Shown in pieces: positions 7,315 through 58,943 of a DNA stretch of 64,000 bases. A program made the position numbers and the translations under genes. Under the pieces are notes generated by a model. That model made no database searches. It was not told the DNA's origin and was given only the letters and a program-made list of their open reading frames with translations. Source of the DNA: Candidatus Contendobacter odensis Run_B_J11. Its GTDB lineage: Bacteria; Pseudomonadota; Gammaproteobacteria; Competibacterales; Competibacteraceae. Positions within the stretch are counted from its first letter, which is position 1; each line of letters starts with the position of its first letter. Where the stretch lies: NCBI RefSeq assembly GCF_000531125.1, contig NZ_CBTK010000261.1, positions 1 through 64,000 on the forward strand, in the 5' to 3' direction.

Positions 7315-10300
7315 ATGAGTCATTTTCTCGACCGGCTGAATTTTTTCAAAAAAGTCACCGATACTTTTTCTGGCGATCACGGCATCGTTACTCAAGAGGA
7401 TCGCGGCTGGGAGGACGCCTATCGCGCCCGCTGGCAACACGACAAGATCGTGCGCTCCACACACGGGGTGAACTGTACCGGCTCCTGTAGCTGGAAAATC
7501 TACGTCAAAAACGGGCTGGTCACCTGGGAAACCCAACAGACCGACTACCCGCGCACCCGTGACGATTTACCGAACCACGAGCCACGCGGCTGCCAGCGTG
7601 GCGCGTCCTACAGTTGGTATCTCTACAGCGCCAACCGGGTGAAATACCCGATGGTGCGCGGCCGACTTTTGAAACTGTGGCGCGAGGCGCTGGCGCAGAA
7701 GAAAGACCCGGTGGACGCCTGGGCTTCCATCGTCGAAGACCCGGCCAAGGCTGCCGAGTACAAGACCATGCGCGGGTTGGGCGGCTTCGTCCGCGCCAGT
7801 TGGGAAGAAGTGAACCCGATCATCGCCGCCGCCAACGTCTACACTGCCAAACAGTACGGTCCGGACCGCATTTACGGTTTCTCGCCGATTCCGGCGATGT
7901 CGATGGTGTCCTACGCCGCTGGCTCCCGCTATCTGTCGCTGATTGGCGGCGCTTGCGGCAGCTTCTATGACTGGTACTGCGACCTGCCGCCCGCCAGCCC
8001 GATGATCTGGGGCGAGCAGACCGACGTGCCGGAATCGGCGGACTGGTACAACTCCACCTTTCTGATGATGTGGGGTTCCAATGTCCCGCAGACCCGCACC
8101 CCCGACGCGCACTTCATGACCGAGGTGCGCTACAAGGGTGCCAAGATCGTAGTGGTCTGCCCGGATTATTCGGAAGCCTCCAAATTCGCCGATGTCTGGC
8201 TGCATCCCAAGCAGGGCACCGACGCTGCTGTCGCCATGGCGATGGGTCACGTCATCCTGCGCGAGTTCCATCTCGACGGTCAGAGCGAGTACTTCAACAA
8301 GTACGTGCGCGAGACCACCGACTTCCCCTATCTGGTGATGCTCGACCCGCGTGAGGACGGCAACTATGTCAACGGTCGTTTCCTGCGCGCTTCAGACCTC
8401 GCTGATAGCGCCGGCCAGGCGAATAATGCCGATTGGAAGACGTTGGCCTTCGACGAGAATAGCGGCAATTTGATCGTTCCCAATGGCTCCATCGGGTTCC
8501 GCTGGGGCGAAAAAGACGGCATGGTCGGCAAGTGGAATCTGGAAGCCAAGGAATCGCTGGCGGGCGCAAAGACCCAGTTGCGCCTATCGGTGAACGAGAT
8601 TAAGGATGCCGTCGCGCCAGTGGCCTTCCCGTATTTTGGCGCCACTCAGCATCCGCACTTCACTTGCACCCAGCACGACGCGATTCAGGTTCGCCACGTC
8701 CCGGCCAAGAAAATCAAACTGGCTGATGGCCGCGAGGCGCTGGTCGCGACGGTCTACGATCTGACGCTCGCCAATTACGGCCTCGACCGTGGCCTTGGCG
8801 GCGGCAACATCGCTCAGAGTTATGACGATGACGTGCCTTACACCCCGGCCTGGCAGGAAAAAATCACCGGCGTTCCCCGCGCCCAGATCATCGCGGTCGC
8901 CCGCCAGTTCGCCGAGAACGCCGACAAGACTCACGGCAAGTCGATGATCATCATCGGCGCGGCGATGAACCACTGGTATCACATGGACATGAATTACCGG
9001 GGCGTCATCAACATGCTGATGATGTGCGGGTGCGTCGGGCAGAGCGGCGGCGGTTGGGCGCACTACGTGGGTCAGGAGAAGTTGCGGCCGCAAACCGGCT
9101 GGACGGCGCTGGCCTTCGCGCTGGATTGGCACCGCCCGCCCCGGCATATGAACTCCACTTCGTTCTTCTACATTCACAGCAGCCAGTGGCGCTACGAAAA
9201 ACTGGCGATGAGCGAAATTCTCTCGCCGCTAGCCGATCCGAAGCAGTGGCAAGGGACGCAGATCGATTACAACGTGCGCGCCGCGCGCATGGGCTGGCTG
9301 CCGACCGCGCCGCATTTCGACGCCAATCCGCTGAAACTGGCGAAGGCTGCCATCGAGGCGGGCAAGACTCCGGCTGAGTATGTGGTCGAAAACCTCAAGT
9401 CCGGCAAAGTCGATTTCGCGTTCGCCGATCCCGACAATCCGGTCAACTTCCCGCGCAACCTGTTCGTGTGGCGCTCCAACCTGCTGGGCTCTTCGGGCAA
9501 GGGCCACGAATACTTCCTCAAGTATCTGCTGGGCACGACGCATGGCGTACAGGGCAAGGATTTGGGCAAGGATGGCGGCGAGAAACCGATGGAAGTCAAA
9601 TGGCGCGATGCGGCGCACGGCAAGCTGGATCTGCTGGTCACGCTGGATTTCCGTATGTCCACGACCTGCATGTATTCCGACATTGTGCTGCCGACGGCGA
9701 CCTGGTACGAGAAGAACGACCTCAACACCTCCGATATGCACCCGTTTATCCATCCGCTGTCGGCGGCGGTGGACCCCGCGTGGGAGTCGCGGACCGACTG
9801 GGATATTTTCAAAGGCATCGCGAAAACCTTCTCGGAAGTCTGCGTTGGACATCTGGGAGTGGAGAAGGACATCGTCGCGCTGCCGACCTTGCACGACACC
9901 CCAACCGAACTGGCGATGCCCGACGTGCGCGACTGGAAGAAGGGCGAATGCGACTTAATCCCTGGCAAGACCGCGCCAAGCTTGGTCGTGGTCGAGCGCG
10001 ATTATCCCAACACCTATCAGAAATTCACCTCGGTTGGCCCGCTGCTGGACACGCTCGGCAATGGCGGCAAGGGCATCGGCTGGAACACGCAGGATGAAGT
10101 CGCCGCGCTGGCGACGCTGAATCATACGGTGCTGGAGGAGGGGGTCGCCAAGGGCCGCCCCCGGATTGAGACGGATATCGACGCCGCTGAAATGGTCATG
10201 ATGCTGGCGCCGGAGACCAACGGCCATGTCGCGGTCAAAGCTTGGGAGGCGCTGAGCAAGATCACTGGCCGCGATCATACCCATCTGGCCCTGCCTAAAG

Positions 10301-11076
10301 AACACGAAAAGATCCGCTTCCGCGACATCCAGGCGCAGCCGCGCAAGATCATCTCCTCGCCCACTTGGTCGGGACTGGAAGATGAGAAGGTTTCGTACAA
10401 CGCGGGCTACACCAATGTCCACGAACTGATCCCGTGGCGCACCGTCACCGGTCGCCAGCAGTTCTATCAGGATCACTTGTGGATGCTCGGTTTCGGCGAA
10501 GCGATGTGCGCTTACCGACCGCCGGTGGATATGAAGACTATCGATCCGATCATTGGCAAGAAGCCGAATGGCAACCCGGAAATCGTGCTGAATTTCATCA
10601 CCCCGCATCAGAAGTGGGGCATCCACAGCACCTACACCGACAATCTATTGATGCTCACCCTGTCGCGTGGCGGTCCGATCATCTGGATATCCGAGGCAGA
10701 CGCCAAGAAGGCGGGTATCGAGGATAACGACTGGATCGAAGCCTACAACGTCAACGGCGCGATTGCGGCGCGGGCGGTGGTCAGCCAGCGGGTGCCGGAA
10801 GGCATGTCGATGATGTACCACGCTCAGGAAAAGATCGTGAACACGCCCGGCTCCGAAACCACCGGCACGCGGGGCGGCATTCACAATTCCGTCACCCGCA
10901 CCGTGCTGAAGCCGACCCACATGATCGGCAGTTACGCCCAGCAGAGCTACGGCTTCAACTACTACGGCACCGTCGGCGCTAATCGTGACGAGTTCATCGT
11001 CGTCCGCAAAATGGACAAGGTCGATTGGCTGGATGACGAGACTCCCTCTGAAGCCTCAACTGTGGAGGCGCATTAA
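7315..11076 (+). CDS. narG: Respiratory nitrate reductase, alpha subunit NarG
   Basis: 1253 residues, the normal length for NarG. Catalytic subunit that reduces nitrate to nitrite at a Mo-bis-MGD centre on the cytoplasmic side. The N-terminal FS0 iron-sulfur ligand region is visible as HGVNCTGSCSW with a further Cys in EPRGCQRGAS (His + 3 Cys pattern). The Mo-site region GEQTDVPESADWYNS and WGSNVPQTRTPDAH is intact, as is DFRMSTTCMYSDIVLPTATWYEK (split here by the usual family motifs). No Tat signal, as expected for NarG. A GAGG lies just ahead of the ATG. Followed two bases later by narH. Confidence 0.97.
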   Translation: MSHFLDRLNFFKKVTDTFSGDHGIVTQEDRGWEDAYRARWQHDKIVRSTHGVNCTGSCSWKIYVKNGLVTWETQQTDYPRTRDDLPNHEPRGCQRGASYSWYLYSANRVKYPMVRGRLLKLWREALAQKKDPVDAWASIVEDPAKAAEYKTMRGLGGFVRASWEEVNPIIAAANVYTAKQYGPDRIYGFSPIPAMSMVSYAAGSRYLSLIGGACGSFYDWYCDLPPASPMIWGEQTDVPESADWYNSTFLMMWGSNVPQTRTPDAHFMTEVRYKGAKIVVVCPDYSEASKFADVWLHPKQGTDAAVAMAMGHVILREFHLDGQSEYFNKYVRETTDFPYLVMLDPREDGNYVNGRFLRASDLADSAGQANNADWKTLAFDENSGNLIVPNGSIGFRWGEKDGMVGKWNLEAKESLAGAKTQLRLSVNEIKDAVAPVAFPYFGATQHPHFTCTQHDAIQVRHVPAKKIKLADGREALVATVYDLTLANYGLDRGLGGGNIAQSYDDDVPYTPAWQEKITGVPRAQIIAVARQFAENADKTHGKSMIIIGAAMNHWYHMDMNYRGVINMLMMCGCVGQSGGGWAHYVGQEKLRPQTGWTALAFALDWHRPPRHMNSTSFFYIHSSQWRYEKLAMSEILSPLADPKQWQGTQIDYNVRAARMGWLPTAPHFDANPLKLAKAAIEAGKTPAEYVVENLKSGKVDFAFADPDNPVNFPRNLFVWRSNLLGSSGKGHEYFLKYLLGTTHGVQGKDLGKDGGEKPMEVKWRDAAHGKLDLLVTLDFRMSTTCMYSDIVLPTATWYEKNDLNTSDMHPFIHPLSAAVDPAWESRTDWDIFKGIAKTFSEVCVGHLGVEKDIVALPTLHDTPTELAMPDVRDWKKGECDLIPGKTAPSLVVVERDYPNTYQKFTSVGPLLDTLGNGGKGIGWNTQDEVAALATLNHTVLEEGVAKGRPRIETDIDAAEMVMMLAPETNGHVAVKAWEALSKITGRDHTHLALPKEHEKIRFRDIQAQPRKIISSPTWSGLEDEKVSYNAGYTNVHELIPWRTVTGRQQFYQDHLWMLGFGEAMCAYRPPVDMKTIDPIIGKKPNGNPEIVLNFITPHQKWGIHSTYTDNLLMLTLSRGGPIIWISEADAKKAGIEDNDWIEAYNVNGAIAARAVVSQRVPEGMSMMYHAQEKIVNTPGSETTGTRGGIHNSVTRTVLKPTHMIGSYAQQSYGFNYYGTVGANRDEFIVVRKMDKVDWLDDETPSEASTVEAH

Positions 11077-18691: not shown

Positions 18692-19843
18692 TCACACCGC
18701 AATCTCGCCGCTCATCAGGCGCGGCAGTAGCAAATCGCGGGCGGCGCGGAGTTTTTGGTTTATCTCTTCGAGTTTGTTTAGTTGCTCGTGGATCAGTGCG
18801 ACTGTTTCCAAGAAAGCGTGAAAGATAGTAACTGCTGGAATAATCAATGGGCGGCTATAAGCCAAATTTCGATTGAGACCAGGAACGGCTACATCGGTAC
18901 TGATGAAGTGCATGTGCTTGAGCGCATAATATAGGTAGAGATTACTTGTTACGGTGTCAATAAAATAAACCGTGTCAATCGGGTAGAAATTCTTAGCACA
19001 CCAATATACGCTACCGACATTACCCTTGCGGCCTAAGATGATTCCCGGCCCTTCCACAAGCGATTTATTGTGTGTACCGACAACACCACTTGAGCCATAA
19101 ACAGGGAAAGGCCCATCTATACGATCATCAGCTTTTAGCGCCTTGCCGTAATTAAGTATCACTTGGTTACCGAGTGTTTTCCGCTCCCACCCCTCCGGCA
19201 CACCATCAATAATTCGCGTATGTTCATAGCCAGGAAAGCGCAGCCGCACGAACCATTCCCGATAGAGCAGCCGCGCCGATCCTTCCAATAACGTCATTCG
19301 GCGGCGGTTGTTTTCAATGAGGTCGTCGTAGGCGGAGAGGGTAGAGGCGATTTGGTTTTGAACTTCGATTGATGGATACCGGATTGGTAGCCCGGCTACG
19401 ATTCCAGCGCTGAGATTGAGCATCGTTGTCCCAACAGCGTGTTGCTCTAACCACTGCACGATATGGTTTTGTTCCATAAAATAATAGAGAAACTCCGGCA
19501 CAAGCTCTTTGCCGTTTACTTCAATCTTTAAGCAGCCAGTTCCACAGAGCCAACCCTCTTGCTCGATTCTAATAAACGCTCGCTTCGTTACATCACCTCG
19601 ACGCGGCAACACAAGTGACCGTGACTTGATCTTATGGCGTTCAAGGCGGTTTGCAGTCTCTTCTGAGATTCTGGCTATGGATTCAAAGGAAACTCGCCCG
19701 TTTGCAATGTCTTTGGGCATGATGACTGGGACGCCATCAGATTGATAATCAGATTGATGGAGTTGTGATCCAAACGGTCCAGTCTGAATTAGCCCACCAT
19801 CGCGTGTGGTGAGTTCTCCGAGTGAGGAGTTGCGCCAAGTCAT
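18692..19843 (-). CDS. hsdS: Type I restriction-modification, specificity subunit HsdS
   Basis: 383 residues with two target-recognition domains (about 1-160 and 205-360) separated by conserved coiled-coil stretches: QIASTLSAYDDLIENNRRRMTL in the middle and QLNKLEEINQKLRAARDLLLPRLMSGEIAV at the end, the usual HsdS layout. It sets the bipartite recognition site, which cannot be predicted from sequence here. Its ATG overlaps the stop of the preceding DUF559 gene as ATGA, so it is translationally coupled to it. TRD regions are more A/T-rich than the flanking genes, as usual for exchanged specificity modules. Confidence 0.93.
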   Translation of the reverse strand: MTWRNSSLGELTTRDGGLIQTGPFGSQLHQSDYQSDGVPVIMPKDIANGRVSFESIARISEETANRLERHKIKSRSLVLPRRGDVTKRAFIRIEQEGWLCGTGCLKIEVNGKELVPEFLYYFMEQNHIVQWLEQHAVGTTMLNLSAGIVAGLPIRYPSIEVQNQIASTLSAYDDLIENNRRRMTLLEGSARLLYREWFVRLRFPGYEHTRIIDGVPEGWERKTLGNQVILNYGKALKADDRIDGPFPVYGSSGVVGTHNKSLVEGPGIILGRKGNVGSVYWCAKNFYPIDTVYFIDTVTSNLYLYYALKHMHFISTDVAVPGLNRNLAYSRPLIIPAVTIFHAFLETVALIHEQLNKLEEINQKLRAARDLLLPRLMSGEIAV

Positions 19844-20250
19844 ACTCCCAACTCCTCAATTCCGCAACCGCTCCCTCCCCCCTTGCGGGGGAGGGCTGGG
19901 GTGGGGGGCGTTCTCTCCAACACCTCCAAAATCTGCATTAACACTCCCTCAGTTTGATTCAGCACTTCGTTATTCCAGAATCGCAGCACCTGAAATTCCT
20001 GTTCCGCCAGCCACTGATCCCGTCGGGCATCATAAACCTGTTGTTCCTGATGCTGACTGCCGTCAATTTCAATGATCAAGCGGCGCTCCAGACAAATAAA
20101 ATCAACGATGTAAGAACCCATAGGCATTTGGCGACGGAAACGATAACCGGCGATTTGCCGTTGGCGCAGATGCTTCCAGAGATGCCGTTCAGCATTAGTC
20201 ATGTTGGAGCGAAGTTCTCTTGCGCGCTCGGTTAGATGTGATTGGGTCAT
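19840..20250 (-). CDS. DUF559-family endonuclease-like protein
   Basis: 136 residues from the ATG at 20250. Typical DUF559 core: RELRSNMTNAERHLWKHLRQ, then FRRQMPMGSYIVDFICLERRLIIEIDGSQH with the D..E-x-D pattern of a Vsr-like/PD-(D/E)XK fold, then DARRDQWLAEQEFQVLRFWN. Biochemical role of the family is not established; nuclease activity is inferred from the fold. The last 20 or so residues (PPTPALPRKGGG) are encoded by a copy of the G-rich repeat, and an identical inverted copy lies just upstream of the start, so the gene is bracketed by a perfect 36-bp inverted repeat. It sits between the toxin gene and hsdS and overlaps hsdS by 4 bases. Confidence 0.85.
   Translation of the reverse strand: MTQSHLTERARELRSNMTNAERHLWKHLRQRQIAGYRFRRQMPMGSYIVDFICLERRLIIEIDGSQHQEQQVYDARRDQWLAEQEFQVLRFWNNEVLNQTEGVLMQILEVLERTPPTPALPRKGGGSGCGIEELGV
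19873..19908. repeat. 36-bp inverted repeat, downstream copy (copy e)
   Basis: CCCTCCCCCCTTGCGGGGGA followed by GGGCTGGGGTGGGGGG; exact reverse complement of 20261-20296. Lies inside the 3' end of the DUF559 gene and is translated there. Contains its own hairpin CCCTCCCCC-cttgc-GGGGGAGGG. Confidence 0.95.
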
Positions 20251-20260
20251 GCGGTTATTA

Positions 20261-20296
20261 CCCCCCACCCCAGCCCTCCCCCGCAAGGGGGGAGGG
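20261..20296. repeat. 36-bp inverted repeat, upstream copy (copy f)
   Basis: Exact reverse complement of 19873-19908, 10 bases upstream of the DUF559 start codon. The two copies are in opposite orientation with 352 bases between their inner ends, so the transcript could also fold into one long hairpin enclosing the gene. Confidence 0.95.
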
Positions 20297-20347: not shown

Positions 20348-20731
20348 TTATTGTTTCAGCGCCAACTTCCGGCAATTCAAACCAGTGACCCCGTGCAAAT
20401 GTTCGTCATTGCTCAATAACACCGCGCCGTATGTAATAGCGGTAGCAGCAATGATTGCGTCGGGGAGCTTGAGCCGATGGTCGCGACGTAGCCGGATCGC
20501 TTCTTCCTTGATGTCATGGCTCAGACCAATGATTTGAATGCTATCCAGAAAACGCAGCAACCTAGTTTCCTGATCAGTGACTAAGCCGGGGAATCCTCGT
20601 AACTCGATTTCTGAGATCATTGAAATCGCTATGCGGCCATGGGGCAGTGTTTCATCCAGCAATCCCTTTTGCAGATAGATGACCGCGTTGGTATCTAATA
20701 TAAAGTTCAACGGTCCCACTCCCGATCCCAT
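20348..20731 (-). CDS. PIN-domain toxin (VapC-like ribonuclease)
   Basis: About 120-127 residues, a complete PIN domain: FILDTNAVIYL with the first catalytic Asp, an E in ISEIELRGFPG, and the C-terminal acidic group LKLPDAIIAATAI then LLSNDEHLHGV. VapC-type toxins are Mg-dependent RNases. The ATG at 20731 gives an extra 7 residues; a TTG at 20710, overlapping the antitoxin stop as TTGA, gives the family-typical start MNFILDTN. Partner gene lies immediately upstream and overlaps. The pair is embedded in the hsd operon, between hsdM and the DUF559 gene. Confidence 0.9.
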   Translation of the reverse strand: MGSGVGPLNFILDTNAVIYLQKGLLDETLPHGRIAISMISEIELRGFPGLVTDQETRLLRFLDSIQIIGLSHDIKEEAIRLRRDHRLKLPDAIIAATAITYGAVLLSNDEHLHGVTGLNCRKLALKQ

Positions 20732-20967: not shown

Positions 20968-23121
20968 CTAAATCAGTTCCTCAAAATTCTGGGCAATTTT
21001 CGCCGCCAGTTCCACCGCTTCCCGATTTAGATCCATCAACTCCACATGAATGTCGCGGAAGGTCTGCTCGAAATCGAAGTCCTCATCCACTTCTGGCGGG
21101 GCAACGCCCACGTAGCGGCCCGGGGTCAAACTCCAATCAGCGGCTTCGATGTCAGCGCGGGTCACTACCTTGCATAAGCCCGGCACCGCTTGCATCTCAG
21201 CGTTGGGGAAACGGTCTTGCAGCCAGACGATTTGCCGGTGGAAATAGGCAACGGCCTTGAGTTGCTCCACCGCCTGTTTGCGCGCTTCCTCCAGTTGCTT
21301 GAGGCGTTTGGTGGCGAGGCGGCGATCATGAAATTCGGCGGCTTCTTCAAGCGCGGCCAATTCCTGCGCCAGTGGCCCACAGCGGGCGGCCAGCTTGTAA
21401 AGCAGGTCTACCTGTTTGACCAATCCCTTAATCCGAGTAGCCAGCGGCTCAAAGGCATGGCGGGCGGTGTGTTGGGCGGTGTTGGTGTCAAGTGGAACAG
21501 TGGCGTATCGATCACGAAATGCCGCCAGTTCTTTAAGCAATACAGCCCGGTCCGCGTCATAGGCGTACCGGGCTTCGGCCAGTTCCGCCAGTCCATCGGT
21601 CAGCGGCTGTTGCTGTTCTGGCGTGAGGGTCGTCAACGCCTTCACCCGCTCCATGAACTCGGCAAGCTGATCTTGTAGCGCCTTAAAGGTGGTCTCAAAG
21701 CGTTCCAGTTCACCGGGAACGGCAGCGGCTTCTTGGCAGACGGTGGCGAAATAGTCCCGCACCAAGGCCAAAAATCGCAGCGGCTGACCGCGATACAGCC
21801 AGACGATAGCGGTGAGATTGGCGAGTTGCTCCGGGCTAAAGTCGTAAATCTTACGGGTGACTTTGCGGTAAACCGTGCGGGCGTCGAGCATCAACACCGT
21901 ATCGCGCCGCTCTGCCGGCTTCCCTTTGTCGAAATGCCACAATTCGCACGGCACGGTGCGGGTGTAGAAGAAGTTGGAGCGGATAGCGATCATCACGTCC
22001 ACATCGCCGGTTTGTATGATCTTGCGGCGTACCTCCGCCTCGCCATGTCCGGCGCTGGACGCCTGCGATGACATCACGAAACCAGCCCGGCCTTTCGGCC
22101 CCAGATAACTCCAGAAGTAGGAAATCCACAGGTAGTTACCGTTGGAGACCGTCTCCTTGTTCTTGCTGGCGTCCCCTTCTTTTTTCTTGCCCGCGCCTTT
22201 GGTGGTGCCTGGCAATCCAAACGGCAGTCGGCGGTCGCCCTTCACCTTCTCGACATCCACCATATCCACATTAAACGGCGGATTCGCCATGACAAAATCA
22301 CACCGACCGAACAGGCTGTGCTCATCCTGGTAGAAGGTGTTGGCCTCGCGGATATCGCCTTCCAGTCCATGCACGGCCAGATTCATCCGGGTTAAGCGAA
22401 TCGTGGTCGCGGTCTTTTCCTGCCCGTAGAACGTGACTTTATGGCTGGTATCCTGACCCTGACGCTCAATAAAGTGACTGGATTGCACGAACATCCCCCC
22501 GGAACCGCAGGCCGGGTCGAAGACAATGCCATGGTCGGGTTCAATGACATTGACGAGGGTTTGCACCAGTGCGGGTGGAGTGAAGAATTCGCCATTGTCT
22601 TGCGCGCCCTGGATCGCGAACTTCATCAGGAAGTATTCGTAGATGCGGCCAAAGACATCGCCGCTGGCGTTACGCAGCACTTCACGGTCGAAAGTGCGCA
22701 ACAGGTTTTCGAGTAAATCGCTCTCGAACTTGTCGTAATCCCTCGGTAACTGACCCCGCAGCGGCTCGAACTCCTCTTCAATGGCGTTCATCGCCTCGAT
22801 CAGCGCCTCCGCCAGCTTGCCGTCCTTGGGCCGCTTGAGCAGCGTGTCATAGCGGGCCGGTTCGGGGAGCATCAGCGAGCGCCGTTTCTTGAAATCAATA
22901 CTCTGCAAGGGCCGCTGGGGCATTTTGCCCGCCGCCTGATCGGCTTCGATCTGTTTCAACGCCGCCTGATAGCGGTTGCTGGCATGGCGCAGAAAAATTA
23001 CCCCCAGCACCGGCATACAGTATTCGCTGGAGGTCAGCTTGGAATTGGCGCGAAGCTGATCGGCGGCTTCCCACAGCGAGGATTCCAGTTGTTCGATGTG
23101 GTGGAGGGCGTTGTGGGTCAT
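20968..23121 (-). CDS. hsdM: Type I restriction-modification, methyltransferase subunit HsdM
   Basis: About 717 residues from the ATG at 23121 (a TTG four codons upstream is also in frame). N6-adenine methyltransferase: N-terminal helical HsdM_N domain (SLWEAADQLRANSKLTSSEY), SAM motif FDPACGSGGMFVQSS (about 204) and catalytic MANPPFN (about 280). It is longer than common HsdM proteins (about 500): after about residue 480 there is a helical, coiled-coil-rich extension (QQPLTDGLAELAEARYAYD, then AALEEAAEFHDRRLATKRLK) ending in a short conserved tail that contains LTPGRYVGVAPPEVDEDFDF, a type I MTase C-terminal motif. First gene of the hsd operon. Confidence 0.94.
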   Translation of the reverse strand: MTHNALHHIEQLESSLWEAADQLRANSKLTSSEYCMPVLGVIFLRHASNRYQAALKQIEADQAAGKMPQRPLQSIDFKKRRSLMLPEPARYDTLLKRPKDGKLAEALIEAMNAIEEEFEPLRGQLPRDYDKFESDLLENLLRTFDREVLRNASGDVFGRIYEYFLMKFAIQGAQDNGEFFTPPALVQTLVNVIEPDHGIVFDPACGSGGMFVQSSHFIERQGQDTSHKVTFYGQEKTATTIRLTRMNLAVHGLEGDIREANTFYQDEHSLFGRCDFVMANPPFNVDMVDVEKVKGDRRLPFGLPGTTKGAGKKKEGDASKNKETVSNGNYLWISYFWSYLGPKGRAGFVMSSQASSAGHGEAEVRRKIIQTGDVDVMIAIRSNFFYTRTVPCELWHFDKGKPAERRDTVLMLDARTVYRKVTRKIYDFSPEQLANLTAIVWLYRGQPLRFLALVRDYFATVCQEAAAVPGELERFETTFKALQDQLAEFMERVKALTTLTPEQQQPLTDGLAELAEARYAYDADRAVLLKELAAFRDRYATVPLDTNTAQHTARHAFEPLATRIKGLVKQVDLLYKLAARCGPLAQELAALEEAAEFHDRRLATKRLKQLEEARKQAVEQLKAVAYFHRQIVWLQDRFPNAEMQAVPGLCKVVTRADIEAADWSLTPGRYVGVAPPEVDEDFDFEQTFRDIHVELMDLNREAVELAAKIAQNFEELI

Positions 23122-23264
23122 TTGTGGGGTCAATTCGATTCAAAAAGATCGGCGCGCTAAACGGGGAGGTCCGGGAAGTAGCGGAACAGGGAATCTACAG
23201 AGGGCCAGTGATGGCCTTCTCGAAACCCATGAACGGTCAACGGTCGATCCTCCGTCGATCTTCC

Positions 23265-24400: not shown

Positions 24401-25314
24401 TCTTGAGCCTGGTCCGGCGCATGCAACTGGGTTTGATAAACAATGCCGGTCTTGGTCGTTCCCAGAGAAACCCAATCGCTCCCGATTTGCTGGAGCGTGG
24501 TGAAAAACTGCTTGCCGCGTTCCATGGCTTTGGTATGGAGTTCGTCGTTGCGCTGGAACTTGCATTGAAATGAAAATTCTCCCGCGAGCGGCTTATGGGT
24601 GCCCCGTTCGCGCCATAGCGCCGCATTGGCCTTGGCCTTGACTCCCTTGCCGAAATCCAGCACTCCCAAATCCTGCAATACCTCTTCGACAATCGTCTGA
24701 TTTACCAACTGGACTTTTTCGGTATCGTCGGTGGCCAGCGCCTGCAAACACGGAAAAACCCGCGCAATGTTCGCCATGGCGGCGTGATGCTCCTCTGGAG
24801 CCTGACTTAAACCAAATTGCACGTTGTGCGAGAACAGCAACCGGTGCCCGCCGATTTGATCCTTCAACGGCAGAGCCTCGGCCTTGAATTTGATTCGATA
24901 CGAGCCGGCAATGTTGGGCCGCACATCCAATTCGGCGGTTTTTTGCATGTCGGGATGGCGAAACTTGAAGACGATCTCCGGGTCGCCCACCGGGAAGTTG
25001 TCTTCGTAGATAATCCGCCGCCGCAAGATGAACTGATGGCGGTAGAGCCTGAAATCCGCCGTGTCGAGAAAAACGACCTCCCGGATTTTGGGCTTTGTAT
25101 TCACCACGCCCTCGGCGGAAAACCCCACTTTGAAGGCGTCAGCCGCACGCTGCACCAGTACGCCGTAGTCCCGAAAACTCTTTACGGAGGTGAATCGTTC
25201 GGGTTTCAGAATCACTTTGCATTCGAGATAGTGAACCGTATCGAGCGGATGTCCGTCGCTGTAAGTTCCCGGCTGGAGATCAAGAAATCTGGGATATGCA
25301 TCATTTTTCAACAT
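24397..25314 (-). CDS. Unrecognised cytosolic protein upstream of the chromate transporter
   Basis: 305 residues, no signal peptide or membrane segment. Alternating beta-strand segments rich in Lys, Arg and Glu (YLECKVILKPERF, REVVFLDTADFRLYRHQFIL, EIVFKFRHPD, YRIKFKAEAL) are weakly reminiscent of triphosphate-tunnel (CYTH-like) proteins, but the ExExK motif is not clearly present and I do not assign it. Start ATG 25314 is supported by GGAGA 8 bases upstream. ATGA overlap with the chromate transporter gene puts it in the same transcript. Its first 18 codons and leader lie within a 101-bp unit that is repeated in tandem just upstream. Confidence 0.75.
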   Translation of the reverse strand: MLKNDAYPRFLDLQPGTYSDGHPLDTVHYLECKVILKPERFTSVKSFRDYGVLVQRAADAFKVGFSAEGVVNTKPKIREVVFLDTADFRLYRHQFILRRRIIYEDNFPVGDPEIVFKFRHPDMQKTAELDVRPNIAGSYRIKFKAEALPLKDQIGGHRLLFSHNVQFGLSQAPEEHHAAMANIARVFPCLQALATDDTEKVQLVNQTIVEEVLQDLGVLDFGKGVKAKANAALWRERGTHKPLAGEFSFQCKFQRNDELHTKAMERGKQFFTTLQQIGSDWVSLGTTKTGIVYQTQLHAPDQAQE

Positions 25315-25462
25315 TTTGTTTCTCCATTTTCGCTATTGTGTTCCTCCGCTCGAAATCCAGTGTAAGTTCCCGGCTGGAGATCAAGAAATCTGGGATGTGC
25401 ATCATTTTTCAACATTTTGTTTCTCCATTTTCGCTATTGTGTTCCTCCGCTCGAAATCCAGT
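25261..25462. repeat. Tandem duplication, 2 x 101 bp
   Basis: Copies at 25261-25361 and 25362-25462 differ at one base that I can see (A at 25295, G at 25396). The unit contains the ribosome binding site, ATG and first 18 codons of the minus-strand gene at 24397-25314. The outer copy starts a second frame (MLKNDAHPRFLDLQPGTY) that does not join the gene because 101 is not a multiple of three. Confidence 0.95.
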
Positions 25463-32741: not shown

Positions 32742-32757
32742 GCGGGAGGATTAAGCA

Positions 32758-35469
32758 ATGATCAGCAGCTTACCTCCCGCCCCAGCCTTCCCCCGCAAGG
32801 AGGGAGGGAGTGACAGCGGCGAAGAAATCCGCACCACCTGCCCCTATTGCGGAGTGGGTTGCGGGGTAAAGGTCACGGTGGATGCCGATGGTCAGGCGCA
32901 GGTGACGGGCGACGAGCGCCATCCCGCAAATTACGGACGGCTGTGTTCGAAAGGCGCGGCGCTAGGCGAAACTCTGAGTCTCGATGATCGCCTGCTTTAT
33001 CCTGAAATCCACGGACGGCGCGCGACATGGGATGAAGCGCTGGACGCAGTTGCCGCCGGTTTTCGCAACGCGCTGGCTGAACACGGTCCCGACGCCATCG
33101 CCTTCTATGTTTCCGGGCAGTTGCTCACTGAGGATTACTACGTCGCCAACAAGCTGATGAAGGGTTGTTTCGGCAGCGCCAACATCGACACCAATTCGCG
33201 GCTGTGCATGTCCTCTTCAGTGGCGGGACATCAACGGGCCTTCGGTTCCGACACCGTGCCGGGTTGCTATGAGGACTTGGAGGACGCTGATCTGGTGGTG
33301 CTGGTCGGCTCCAATCTGGCCTGGTGTCATCCGGTGCTGTATCAGCGCATTCTCGCCGCCCGCGAACAACGCGCCGGCAAACCCCGGCTGGTGGTGATCG
33401 ATCCGCGCCGCACCGCCACTTGCGAGGCCGCCGAAATCCATTTGCCGCTCAAACCGGGTTCGGATACCGCGCTGTTCAACGGTCTGCTGGCGCATCTCTA
33501 TCAGCAGGATCGGTTGAATCCAGAGTTTCTCGATCGGCATGTCGCCGGTTTCTGGTCAGCGTATCAGGCCGCCAAGGCGGTTGCGCCCAACATTCCGACC
33601 GTGGCCGCCAAAACCGGTTTGTCGGAAAGCGCGGTCGCCGAGTTCTATGGTCTCTGGGGCCGAACTCATAAAGTGGTGACGGTGTACTCGCAGGGCGTGA
33701 ACCAGTCTTCTTATGGCAGCGACAAGGTGAATGCGATCATCAACTGCCATCTCGCCACCGGGCGGATTGGTCAGCCGGGAATGGGGCCGTTCTCTGTCAC
33801 CGGTCAGCCGAACGCGATGGGAGGGCGTGAAGTCGGCGGGCTGGCCAGTCAATTGGCGGCGCACATGGATTTCGCGCCGGAGGCGGTCGAACGGGTGCGA
33901 CGCTTTTGGAAAGCGCCCGCCATCGCCAGTCGCCCCGGCTTAAAAGCAGTTGAACTATTTCAGGCGGTCGCCGACACCAAAATCAAGGCGCTGTGGATCA
34001 TGGGCACTAATCCACTGGTGAGTCTGCCGGACGCCGACGCGGCGCGGGAAGCGTTGCGGCGCTGCCCGCTGGTGATTGTCTCCGATGCGGTGGCGGATAC
34101 CGACACCGTGCGTTTGGCGCAGATCAAGCTGCCGGCGCTGACCTGGGGCGAGAAGGAAGGCGCGGTGACCAACTCCGAGCGGCGAATTTCCCGGCAGCGG
34201 GCGTTTTTGCCGCCGCCGGGCGAGGCGCAACCCGATTGGTGGGCGATGACTCAGGTAGCGCGGCGGTTGGGATTCGGCGCCCTGTTTCCCTACGAATCGC
34301 CAGCGGCCATTTTTCGCGAACACGCGGCGTTGTCGGGTTTTGAAAACGAGGGTCGCCGCGATTTCGACATTTCCGCGCTGGCCGATCTCACCGATGACGG
34401 TTACGACGCCTTGCCGCCGGTGCAATGGCCGTTGCCGCGTGGCGCAACCACAGGCGCTACGCGCCTGTTTGGCGAAGGCGGCTTTTTCACCGCCGATGGT
34501 AAAGCCCGCTGCATCGCGGTCGGCGAACGGTCGCCCGCGTATGCGGTGGACAAGAGCTTTCCGCTGATCCTTAATAGTGGCCGGATTCGTGATCAGTGGC
34601 ACACCATGACCCGTACCGGCAAAACGGCGCGACTGACCGGCCATATTCCAGAACCCTATGTTGAGATTCATCCGGTAGACGCGCTGGCCTGCGGCGTTAG
34701 CGAGAACGGGCTGGCGCGGGTGCAGAGTCGCTGGGGTGAAGTCATTGTCCGGGTGCGAACCAGCGCGGAACAGCAGCCGGGTAGCGTGTTCGCACCGATG
34801 CACTGGGGTTCGCCGCTGGCGCCACAGGGACGGGTCAACGCGGCAGTCAATCCGGCGGTCGATCCGCTGTCCGGTCAGCCGGAATTGAAGCACACCCCAG
34901 TGCGGGTGCAGGCGTACCGCCCACGCTGGCATGGCTTCCTGTTGTGCCGCGAAGCCATTGAACCGCCGACGGTGGAGTATCGGGTCAGCGTGCGCGAGCG
35001 GGCCTGCTGGCGCTATGAACTGGCGGGCGAAAATGTGATTGGCGATTGGCCGGACTGGGCGCGGACTCTGTTCGGCGACGATCCGGGCTGGGAATGGCTG
35101 GAATTCGCCGATGCGGGCACGGGGCGCTATCGGGGCGCGGTGCTGGCTGAGGGACGACTACAGGCTTGCCTGTTCGTTGCGCCGACTCACGAATTGCCGC
35201 TGCGTGGCTGGCTGGCTGGACTGTTCGCGGCAGCGGAACTCGGTGTTGCTGAACACGCCAGTTTGTTAGCCGGTCGGCCAAGGCCGGGCCAGCGGGATTG
35301 CGGACGGATCGTTTGCGCCTGTTTTGGCGTCGGGTTGAACGCGCTGACGACCGCCATTCGCGATCAGGGTTTGGCGACGCCGGAAGCGATTGGCGCGACG
35401 CTGAAAGCGGGCAGCAATTGCGGGTCTTGTGTGCCGGAATTGCGGCAACTCATTCAGGAGTACGGCTGA
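32758..35469 (+). CDS. nasA: Assimilatory nitrate reductase catalytic subunit NasA
   Basis: 903 residues. Mo-bis-MGD oxidoreductase of the NasA/NarB/NapA type, cytoplasmic. N-terminal 4Fe-4S motif CPYCGVGCGV with the fourth Cys in GRLCSKGAAL; cofactor-binding stretch SNLAWCHPVLYQR; C-terminal molybdopterin domain. After about residue 830 there is a BFD-type 2Fe-2S domain (CACFGVG...SNCGSCVPELRQL), an electron entry module found in many NasA proteins. The first 22 or so residues (SSLPPAPAFPRKEGG) are encoded by the dispersed repeat at 32771-32812. ATG 32758 is preceded by GGGAGG. Overlaps convergent mobB by 20 bases. Confidence 0.93.
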   Translation: MISSLPPAPAFPRKEGGSDSGEEIRTTCPYCGVGCGVKVTVDADGQAQVTGDERHPANYGRLCSKGAALGETLSLDDRLLYPEIHGRRATWDEALDAVAAGFRNALAEHGPDAIAFYVSGQLLTEDYYVANKLMKGCFGSANIDTNSRLCMSSSVAGHQRAFGSDTVPGCYEDLEDADLVVLVGSNLAWCHPVLYQRILAAREQRAGKPRLVVIDPRRTATCEAAEIHLPLKPGSDTALFNGLLAHLYQQDRLNPEFLDRHVAGFWSAYQAAKAVAPNIPTVAAKTGLSESAVAEFYGLWGRTHKVVTVYSQGVNQSSYGSDKVNAIINCHLATGRIGQPGMGPFSVTGQPNAMGGREVGGLASQLAAHMDFAPEAVERVRRFWKAPAIASRPGLKAVELFQAVADTKIKALWIMGTNPLVSLPDADAAREALRRCPLVIVSDAVADTDTVRLAQIKLPALTWGEKEGAVTNSERRISRQRAFLPPPGEAQPDWWAMTQVARRLGFGALFPYESPAAIFREHAALSGFENEGRRDFDISALADLTDDGYDALPPVQWPLPRGATTGATRLFGEGGFFTADGKARCIAVGERSPAYAVDKSFPLILNSGRIRDQWHTMTRTGKTARLTGHIPEPYVEIHPVDALACGVSENGLARVQSRWGEVIVRVRTSAEQQPGSVFAPMHWGSPLAPQGRVNAAVNPAVDPLSGQPELKHTPVRVQAYRPRWHGFLLCREAIEPPTVEYRVSVRERACWRYELAGENVIGDWPDWARTLFGDDPGWEWLEFADAGTGRYRGAVLAEGRLQACLFVAPTHELPLRGWLAGLFAAAELGVAEHASLLAGRPRPGQRDCGRIVCACFGVGLNALTTAIRDQGLATPEAIGATLKAGSNCGSCVPELRQLIQEYG
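32771..32812. repeat. C/G-rich hairpin repeat inside nasA (copy h)
   Basis: TACCTCCCGCCCCAGCCTTC then CCCCGCAAGGAGGGAGGG; differs from the DUF559-flanking copy f by a few bases over its length and is in the frame that encodes LPPAPAFPRKEGG, almost the peptide encoded at the DUF559 C-terminus. Confidence 0.8.
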
Positions 35470-57104: not shown

Positions 57105-58943
57105 CTATTGCACTTCATACACTTCCACGAGAGCATTGCCGGTGGTGGCATCAGCCCCGCGCACGATGGCGGTGTAAGCGCCGGGATTAAGCGTAGTCAA
57201 AATTGCGGCCTCCTGAGCGTAGCGCGGCCGGGCAGGATGCGCCTGAATCTCGGCAGCGTTGACGGCTGTACCCCAATCATCGTTGCTGAGAATAGCCTGA
57301 CCGCTGGCATTATGCAGGGTGATATTGGGATCATTCAGCACAGAGGGCACGCCGGCTTGAGCCAACGCCGGTCCTTTGGCTGTGATCAACACCTTTTTGG
57401 CGGCGTTGCCGCTAATAATGAAACCGCCGATCATCACGCTGTCTCCCGTGCCGACCCAACCTCGCGTAGAGATGTTGACCAATCGAGAAGTAGTATTGCC
57501 GGCTTCGAGATCGTAAACCTCGACGAGGGCATTGCCAGTAGTGGAACCGGCCCCGCGCACGATGGCGGTGTAAGCGCCGGGATTAAGCGTAGTCAAAATC
57601 GCGGCTTCCTGAGCGTAGCGCGGCCGGGCAGGATGCGCCTGAATCTCCGCCGCATTCGCGGCCGTACCCCAGTTGTCGTTGCTAAGGATGGGCTGACCGC
57701 TGGCGTTATGCAGAGTGATATTAGGATCATTCAGCACCGAAGGCACGCCTGACTGAGTCAGGGTCGGACCTTTGGCAGTGATCAACACTTTTTTTGCGGC
57801 GCTGCCACTAATGATAAAACCACCGATCATCACGCTATCCCCCGTGCCAACCCAGCCCCGCGTAGAGATGTTGGTCAACAGGGTGGACAATGGCGTTGGC
57901 GTTGGTCCCGCCGCATCAATCTGATAATCCAATAAAACACTGCTGCCGCTCACGGTCACGTTACGGCTGGCGCTCGGTACCCCGCCGCCGGAAAAATTGA
58001 CGGTCAGGGCACCGCTGGCGGTTACTGGAATCGCATAGCCGCCGCCTGCCGCAGTCATCGCGTAATACGTGCCCTGACTGGGCTGAACCATCACGTTGCC
58101 GTAACCCTCACCCGGATCGTAACGTCCGTTCTTATCCTTGTCCTGCCAGACCGTGCCGACCAAAAAGACATTGAACTGATCGACACCATTTTCAGTGGCG
58201 TAACAGTAGTTGCCGGTGACCACCAGAGGGCCAATAGCAGTAGCCGGATTGGTTTCGGCCACTGCGGCAAGGCCCACATTAGTGTAATCGAAGTCAATCG
58301 CCATCAACCCCATGCGGTGGCCTCGACCGGGCTGCATCCCGCTGCCATCGCCCGGACCCCAATCAATATTCCAGGCAGCATGAGTATTCAACGCGCTGGT
58401 TGCATAGGAAAAGACACTACCACGCGCCAGGGTAAAGCGGAAACCGGCAGCGGTGATCTGGTCGAACTGCTGGTTGTGATCCTGAGCATCGCGGGAGATC
58501 AGATCGTCGGAATGCATCTTGGCCGCCTGATACAGTCGAGCATCGAACGCGGCAGGCGGTTTAGCGGCATAGCTGGCGAACTCGCTTTGCAGCAGATTAG
58601 TGTTCACCTGGAAGTAACTCCGACCACTGGCGACATCAGAGTTTGGCTCCGTCGCCAGCCACCGACCCTCAGCAGCCGGATCTCGCCGGGCGCGGTTCAT
58701 CAGCCAGACCAGCGCCTGTTCATCACCGTTGGGGTGTTGACCATCAGCGGTTCGGTGATAGGTCCATTCAGCAGCGGGCGCGGCAGTGACAAAGGGTACC
58801 GGATTCAACTGGAGCAGCACCGGGTATTCCAGATCCAATGTTAACGGCGGATCGGGTTCTGCCATGTGCAGCAACTCGCTGGCCGAGGCGAAGGCGGTGG
58901 TTCCCACCAGCAGACCGCTGGCTATCAACAGGGTCATTTTCAT
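57105..58943 (-). CDS. Secreted CAP-domain protein with a duplicated C-terminal module
   Basis: About 612 residues. Signal peptide MTLLIASGLLVGTTAFASAS. CAP/SCP (PR-1-like) domain at about 70-260: NGDEQALVWLMNRARRDPAA, HSDDLISRDAQDHNQQ with the conserved His and Asp, then MGLMAIDFDYTNVGL. A spacer of about 90 residues (VWQDKDKNGRYDPGEGYGNV) is like an SdrD B/EF-hand-like unit. Then two modules of 132 residues each, starting NISTRGWVGTGDSVMIGGFI, almost identical in protein and DNA. ATG 58943 has GAGG at good distance. Function unknown; surface adhesion or matrix role is only a guess. Confidence 0.87.
   Translation of the reverse strand: MKMTLLIASGLLVGTTAFASASELLHMAEPDPPLTLDLEYPVLLQLNPVPFVTAAPAAEWTYHRTADGQHPNGDEQALVWLMNRARRDPAAEGRWLATEPNSDVASGRSYFQVNTNLLQSEFASYAAKPPAAFDARLYQAAKMHSDDLISRDAQDHNQQFDQITAAGFRFTLARGSVFSYATSALNTHAAWNIDWGPGDGSGMQPGRGHRMGLMAIDFDYTNVGLAAVAETNPATAIGPLVVTGNYCYATENGVDQFNVFLVGTVWQDKDKNGRYDPGEGYGNVMVQPSQGTYYAMTAAGGGYAIPVTASGALTVNFSGGGVPSASRNVTVSGSSVLLDYQIDAAGPTPTPLSTLLTNISTRGWVGTGDSVMIGGFIISGSAAKKVLITAKGPTLTQSGVPSVLNDPNITLHNASGQPILSNDNWGTAANAAEIQAHPARPRYAQEAAILTTLNPGAYTAIVRGAGSTTGNALVEVYDLEAGNTTSRLVNISTRGWVGTGDSVMIGGFIISGNAAKKVLITAKGPALAQAGVPSVLNDPNITLHNASGQAILSNDDWGTAVNAAEIQAHPARPRYAQEAAILTTLNPGAYTAIVRGADATTGNALVEVYEVQ
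57112..57876. repeat. Two tandem near-identical coding modules (396-bp period)
   Basis: Copies about 57112-57480 and 57508-57876, offset 396 bases (132 codons). Long stretches are identical, for example the run around CACGATGGCGGTGTAAGCGC in each. Differences are mostly silent or conservative, pointing to a recent duplication or continuing gene conversion. Confidence 0.9.

Follow-up and report, generated by a model that had tools for sequence, protein, structure and literature searches.

BoxC-like hairpins bracket DUF559 nuclease genes in many bacteria and are probably the ends of a small mobile unit, with a likely stray end in nasA of Candidatus Contendobacter odensis

The window analysed here is a stretch of 64,000 nt from Candidatus Contendobacter odensis Run_B_J11 (contig NZ_CBTK010000261.1, positions 1 to 64,000, forward strand). 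It contains a type I restriction operon with a DUF559 gene set between two hairpins, and a nitrate reductase gene whose first codons include a third hairpin of the same kind:

18692..19843, minus strand: hsdS, type I specificity gene, whose start overlaps the DUF559 stop
19840..20250, minus strand: DUF559 (PF04480) nuclease gene, 136 aa from its ATG
19873..19908, minus strand: hairpin downstream of the DUF559 gene and overlapping its frame, encoding PPTPALPRKGGG, 1 mismatch to the triplex pattern
20261..20296, plus strand: hairpin on the upstream side of the DUF559 gene, its head pointing inward, with 1 mismatch to the triplex pattern
20968..23133, minus strand: hsdM, type I methyltransferase
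32758..35469, plus strand: nasA, assimilatory nitrate reductase, with Molybdop_Fe4S4, Molybdopterin, Molydop_binding and Fer2_BFD domains
approx. 32770..32820, plus strand: segment missing from 13 of 14 orthologues (the window is 48-51 nt longer than its relatives)
32773..32811, plus strand: BoxC/triplex-like hairpin repeat, head first, in the nasA reading frame, 4 mismatches to the published three-block pattern

Within the restriction operon, a PIN-domain gene (20348-20731) lies between the DUF559 unit and hsdM. Elsewhere, the window carries a 101-bp tandem duplication (25260-25461, 99% identical) and a direct repeat of 300 nt (57115-57414 and 57511-57810, 86% identical, 396 apart).

The nasA gene starts at the ATG at 32758, behind a GGGAGG at 32744-32749 and an in-frame TAA at 32752-32754, and its product begins MISSLPPAPAFPRKEGGSDSGEE...CPYCGVGCG, with the hairpin repeat as codons 6-18. 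An earlier note on this DNA had described an in-frame hairpin near the NasA start, lying between a Shine-Dalgarno/ATG and the conserved enzyme and apparently tolerated there, and our reading of the nasA start region bears this out. The same note had considered that translation might begin after the repeat; there is no in-frame start between the ATG and the CPYC cluster, and a later start would lose that cluster. It had also likened the NasA peptide to the DUF559 C-terminus, and a near-identical 39-nt hairpin does give the end of that protein, which finishes in PPTPALPRKGGGSGCGIEELGV: the copies at 32770-32808 and 20258-20296 share 90% identity, and the two that surround the DUF559 gene, 19873-19908 and 20261-20296, are perfect 36-nt inverted copies of each other. 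The lettering of the copies in the earlier note, a to h, implies eight; three were found in the window. Their 21-nt core (≤3 mismatches) occurs 3 times there and 0 times in 100 shuffles. The two coding copies agree in reading phase, as had been claimed, but this is weak evidence, a roughly 1-in-3 event, since the three window copies contain no stop codon in any of their six frames, and the shared phase was ruled out as a sign of selection.

Searching 40 genomes, including that of the window (G000), gave 14 NasA orthologous loci (L041-L054). The expectation that homologues would lack the segment held for 13 of the 14, in which a short leader runs directly into the CPYC motif, but not for genome G017 (L043), which bears a same-length insert at the same NasA site, made of a related but different hairpin. 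In the NasA protein tree the window sequence pairs with G003, a short, long-branched row of only 95 residues, and G017 pairs with G018. Neither partner has the insert, and because the tree needs two changes, the inserts of G000 and G017 look independent; shared ancestry is not favoured, as the starred branches force two changes, with the G003 row short and long-branched. Two insertions of one repeat kind at one NasA site suggest a preference for translation-start regions. Two other copies in the window genome (L221 at C117:2004 and L222 at C261:95747) lie just upstream of apparent ORF starts, those of an AAA ATPase-like and a cobalamin adenosyltransferase-like gene (named by eye), which fits such a preference. 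A candidate target-site duplication at nasA (TGATCAGCAGC / TGACAGCGGC) was rejected as not significant, its score being reached in 1811 of 20000 shuffles and at 367 of 2642 sites of the same geometry.

The window genome holds a second in-frame hairpin in a host gene, on the other strand of a 666-aa ORF (L071, contig C68, region 8500-10500). This ORF combines Y1_Tnp-like (IS200-like) sequence with a PLPKHGQDARATPP-type peptide and an Eco57I methylase, the last of which holds the hairpin, and in three alignments its plasmid-borne homologues lack 12-19 residues at the hairpin position.

The DUF559 gene proved to be a different case. The genome scan found 46 relatives of the window protein in named genomes of several phyla, and all but one locus (L125, too short) were scored for flanking inverted repeats. 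A score of at least 30 was reached at 31 of these 45 loci vs 13 of 1550 shifted windows from the same loci, and a score of at least 40 at 27 of 45 vs 0 of 1550. Among 69 further DUF559 loci from one class, found with the Pfam profile, the corresponding counts were 52 of 69 vs 17 of 701 controls and 42 of 69 vs 6 of 701; this set comprises 29 loci returned automatically (the window locus L009 uncounted) and 40 picked from the same listing, mostly by E-value order and mostly skipping fragments and hits within long open frames. The DUF559 loci are not independent of one another (several, for example, come from Herbaspirillum). Of 11 true Vsr genes, none reached a score of 30. In 56 of the 77 units with an unbroken frame (out of 83 units at a score of at least 30), the DUF559 frame extends into the downstream hairpin or beyond it; because DUF559 frames commonly do so, the hairpin-encoded peptide that ends the window protein is nothing unusual for a gene that is itself part of the element. 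The idea that one element had hit two unrelated host proteins, NasA and DUF559, does not survive this result, as the DUF559 gene sits between inverted hairpins in most loci examined; of the two, only the NasA copy is a host-gene insertion, and the earlier interpretation as a whole is partly supported.

Twelve plasmid-collection loci were viewed singly, outside these counts, and in several an inward copy is missing from one side or from both (L247 has none). On the Synechocystis sp. B12 plasmids (L227, L228), DUF559 and hairpin-like repeats adjoin DNA methyltransferase genes annotated as DUF1156 / PglX, which the units may interrupt. At L246, in Neisseria gonorrhoeae (NZ_CP119142.1), the gene for a relative of 3hrl, a DUF559 protein of known structure, lies between inward-pointing triplex-type repeats, one with 3 mismatches and the other with 1.

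The hairpins belong to a known repeat family, variously named BoxC, PIT, TM_ECO or intrastrand triplex motif (Holder et al., 2015; PMC4666352). The sections of that paper drawn on here report 3610 copies in 262 proteobacterial genomes, linked to genome instability, and describe the E. coli copies as always intergenic, with no mobility genes found near the sites. With the triplex pattern written as CCCTCNCCC-N3-6-GGGNGAGGG-N3-GGGNGAGGG and one mismatched pair allowed, the two copies that flank DUF559 match it at 1 mismatch, and the NasA copy, with 4, falls outside the strict BoxC/TM_ECO definition. The repeat is dispersed in several copies in the window genome and forms inverted pairs, as BoxC/TM_ECO does, but unlike the E. 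coli copies of those same sections it stands in frame in nasA and the methylase ORF and is paired with DUF559. A looser head-plus-hairpin pattern has 9 exact matches in the window genome, where the reversed pattern has 0. At 112 of 115 DUF559 loci (those with at least 100 nt on each side), the published triplex pattern points inward within 300 nt on both sides in 52, on one side in 26 and on neither side in 34, vs both sides in 1 and either side in 25 of 1229 controls.

Other repeat systems offer partial parallels. One is the palindromic elements of Rickettsia, to which Di Nocera et al. (2013; PMC3733652) refer. In these, too, unrelated proteins contain a palindromic repeat in their reading frames. 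They belong to another sequence family, and a candidate partner gene exists for the hairpins described here. Like REP/BIME elements with RAYT genes, for which intragenic REPs are known, the DUF559 unit is a gene flanked by inverted palindromes of a genome-dispersed kind, but the RAYT protein is a Y1 transposase and DUF559 a PD-(D/E)XK/EDxHD-type nuclease, PF04480 (relevant sections of Nunvar et al., 2010, PMC2817692, and Di Nocera et al., 2013). The copies read also lack the GTAG or CGTC tag that REPs carry at the palindrome's foot. Taken alone, the nasA case is a modest example of a tolerated palindromic insertion of the kind known from REPs and Rickettsia. A literature search by titles and abstract openings, with thin coverage of subscription journals, returned no link between DUF559 and palindromic repeats.

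By fold and profile similarity, DUF559 is predicted to be an EDxHD/Vsr-like nuclease. A profile of 43 DUF559 sequences (L110, with stop codons, was excluded from the alignment) matched 3hrl (endonuclease-like, Neisseria) and 3r3p (the I-Bth0305I catalytic domain; E 2e-5), and a predicted model (pLDDT 85.7) had the same two structures as its best fold matches (3r3p, E 4.3e-4, TMt 0.74), with E. coli Vsr (1vsr) a weak one (E 0.14, TMt 0.50). In the 43 rows, E21, H67 and D74 are invariant and D50 is conserved in at least 90%, which makes these the candidate E, D, H and D active-site residues, as assigned from the alignment. Profile matches to toxin B-subunits (E 0.018-0.14) were taken as chance, and PADLOC gave a weak DpdF match alone (5.5e-4). 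A DUF559-containing intein gene has been placed in the EDxHD family (in the portion of PMC9403480 consulted). The predicted fold resembles that of the EDxHD homing endonuclease I-Bth0305I and of Vsr (reviewed in PMC3943268), to whose acidic and histidine residues the conserved ones of DUF559 may correspond; the DUF559 gene differs in standing alone between hairpins and not within an intron or intein.

Gene and repeat also occur together at the level of genomes. With presence of DUF559 defined as PF04480 at E ≤ 1e-15, 78 of 369 genomes of the class had the gene, 78 had the hairpin pattern and 43 had both (OR 9.0, p 1.7e-14). With one genome per family (158 genomes: G000 and G026-G182), 22 had both, 16 the hairpin only, 11 the gene only and 109 neither (OR 13.6, p 2.4e-9); the exceptions are thus 16 of 38 hairpin genomes without DUF559 at this threshold and 11 of 33 DUF559 genomes without the pattern. 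The OR was 18.7 when at least 5 hairpins were required, and permutation within size terciles reached the observed overlap in 0 of 20000 trials.

Signs of movement came from two other bacteria. Genome G057 contains three closely related DUF559 units of ~0.5 kb (L144, L163 and L166), of which L163 and L166 are 98% identical across 534 bp, the match ending at the inverted ends. The unit is bounded by direct repeats, GGTTTGTAACC at L166 (11/11) and L144 (10/11) and GGTGCAGATT plus one base at L163 (10/11); part of the flank is common to L144 and L166, owing to their position in dispersed palindromes of one kind. With ≤2 mismatches, the end sequence is present at 10 places in the genome, and at four of these there is no DUF559 unit. 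In Deinococcus sp. NW-56, a hairpin-bearing DUF559 gene lies on a plasmid between hpaE and an oxidoreductase gene, two genes that overlap in D. proteolyticus; unit and hairpins are wholly missing from the relative's gene junction, which thus represents an empty site. D. proteolyticus has a DUF559 gene of its own at another junction of the same operon. The hallmarks of a transposable element (defined ends, direct repeats, several sites and an empty site) were found in the G057 units and at the Deinococcus junction, and these features point to transposition of the DUF559 unit, as read from sequence. Most units other than those of G057 have no clear direct repeats: repeats of at least 10 nt bound 6 of 83 units vs 19 of 6806 mispaired flanks, with those of L085 and L101 copying the start of the downstream gene and L156 and L180 looking like tandem hairpins. 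Among the Azospirillum matches listed, there was no clean empty site.

We consider it probable that the hairpin is the end of a small mobile unit with a single DUF559 nuclease gene of Vsr/EDxHD homing-endonuclease fold, and that the NasA copy is a stray end of it. The full unit would consist of hairpin, DUF559 and hairpin, about 0.4-0.55 kb in all. The inverted hairpin ends are probably what the nuclease recognises when it cuts DNA; repair or strand transfer would then copy the unit, a single hairpin or a hairpin pair to new places, often gene junctions and starts. In the window genome, one full unit would precede hsdS in the type I restriction operon, and a stray hairpin would have entered the first codons of nasA. 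That insertion may have survived because it is stop-free in all frames, has a net length that is a multiple of three and lies in a variable leader before the CPYC iron-sulphur motif, and NasA presumably remains active. We infer that the hairpins are substrates of DUF559 and are moved by it.

Alternatively, DUF559 could be a homing endonuclease that lands in pre-existing hairpin pairs, which would be its target and be spread by something else. The EDxHD fold is that of homing endonucleases, gene-less hairpin pairs exist (4 of 5 E. coli pairs point inward by the coordinates in Table 1, the part of PMC4666352 used for this count), and there are hairpin-rich genomes without DUF559, such as G072 with 44. 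The shared unit of G057, however, reaches past the hairpins to further inverted ends, with the direct repeats outside these, while in Deinococcus the unit and its hairpins are absent together from the relative's junction; we regard this account as unlikely.

A far less probable explanation involves no mobility at all: the hairpin would serve as a terminator or as a stem-loop with a regulatory role, or the extra NasA residues would be a conserved functional N-terminus. GC-rich stem-loops can act as terminators, and G017 does carry a segment of equal length at the same site. Against this stand the same three-block sequence found across phyla, inverted around one gene family and in coding frames; the reversed pattern, with 0 matches in every genome listed; and the 13 orthologues that lack the segment. 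Earlier work, as cited in the sections of Holder et al. used here, found no promoter or terminator activity. The least probable reading, in which Y1 (RAYT) transposases mobilise the hairpins like classical REPs and DUF559 is a passenger, can point to 8 Y1_Tnp matches in the window genome, one of them within the hairpin-holding methylase ORF, but the Y1_Tnp-hairpin association is weak (OR 3.3 vs 13.6 for DUF559, and 1.9 vs ~12.6 in a joint logistic fit that included genome size), the DUF559 association persists where Y1_Tnp is absent (3, 3, 3, 43; p 0.016) and the window copies have no tag beside the palindrome.

The mobile-unit reading extends to E. coli, where copy 9 of the published table (MG1655 1351204-1351239; PMC4666352, the table being the part used) falls between fabI and ycjD, on the downstream side of ycjD and 167 nt from it. 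This last gene (1351407-1351760) is annotated as DUF559, its last codons look like a decayed hairpin copy, and it is present in 3365 of 5426 complete E. coli genomes. A strain-level comparison of ycjD with repeat number covered one strain, IHE3034, which has no ycjD between fabI and sapF and, in the same paper's strain data as far as drawn on here, one motif copy. The ycjD locus gave no clean empty site for comparison, because in the strains examined that lack ycjD an efflux cassette adjoins sapF.

Because these hairpins enclose its gene in many bacteria, the DUF559 nuclease may spread a widespread repeat family, and the DUF559 family stands out as a strong candidate for the mobility factor that BoxC has lacked. 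With a specific enzyme family lying between inverted copies, the origin of BoxC becomes directly testable, including in E. coli K-12 at repeat 9 by ycjD. The chances seem to us about even that DUF559 and its hairpin ends form a separate class of transposable element, in which a nuclease replaces the transposase and which spreads triplex-forming BoxC across phyla; its members would perhaps be among the smallest autonomous elements (about 0.4-0.55 kb, roughly 110-150 aa), and in-frame peptides like that of NasA would be their fossils. If DUF559 does move the repeats, this large family, whose annotation gives its function as unknown, would gain a role, and hairpin insertions would explain why some annotated proteins contain odd peptides rich in proline and glycine.
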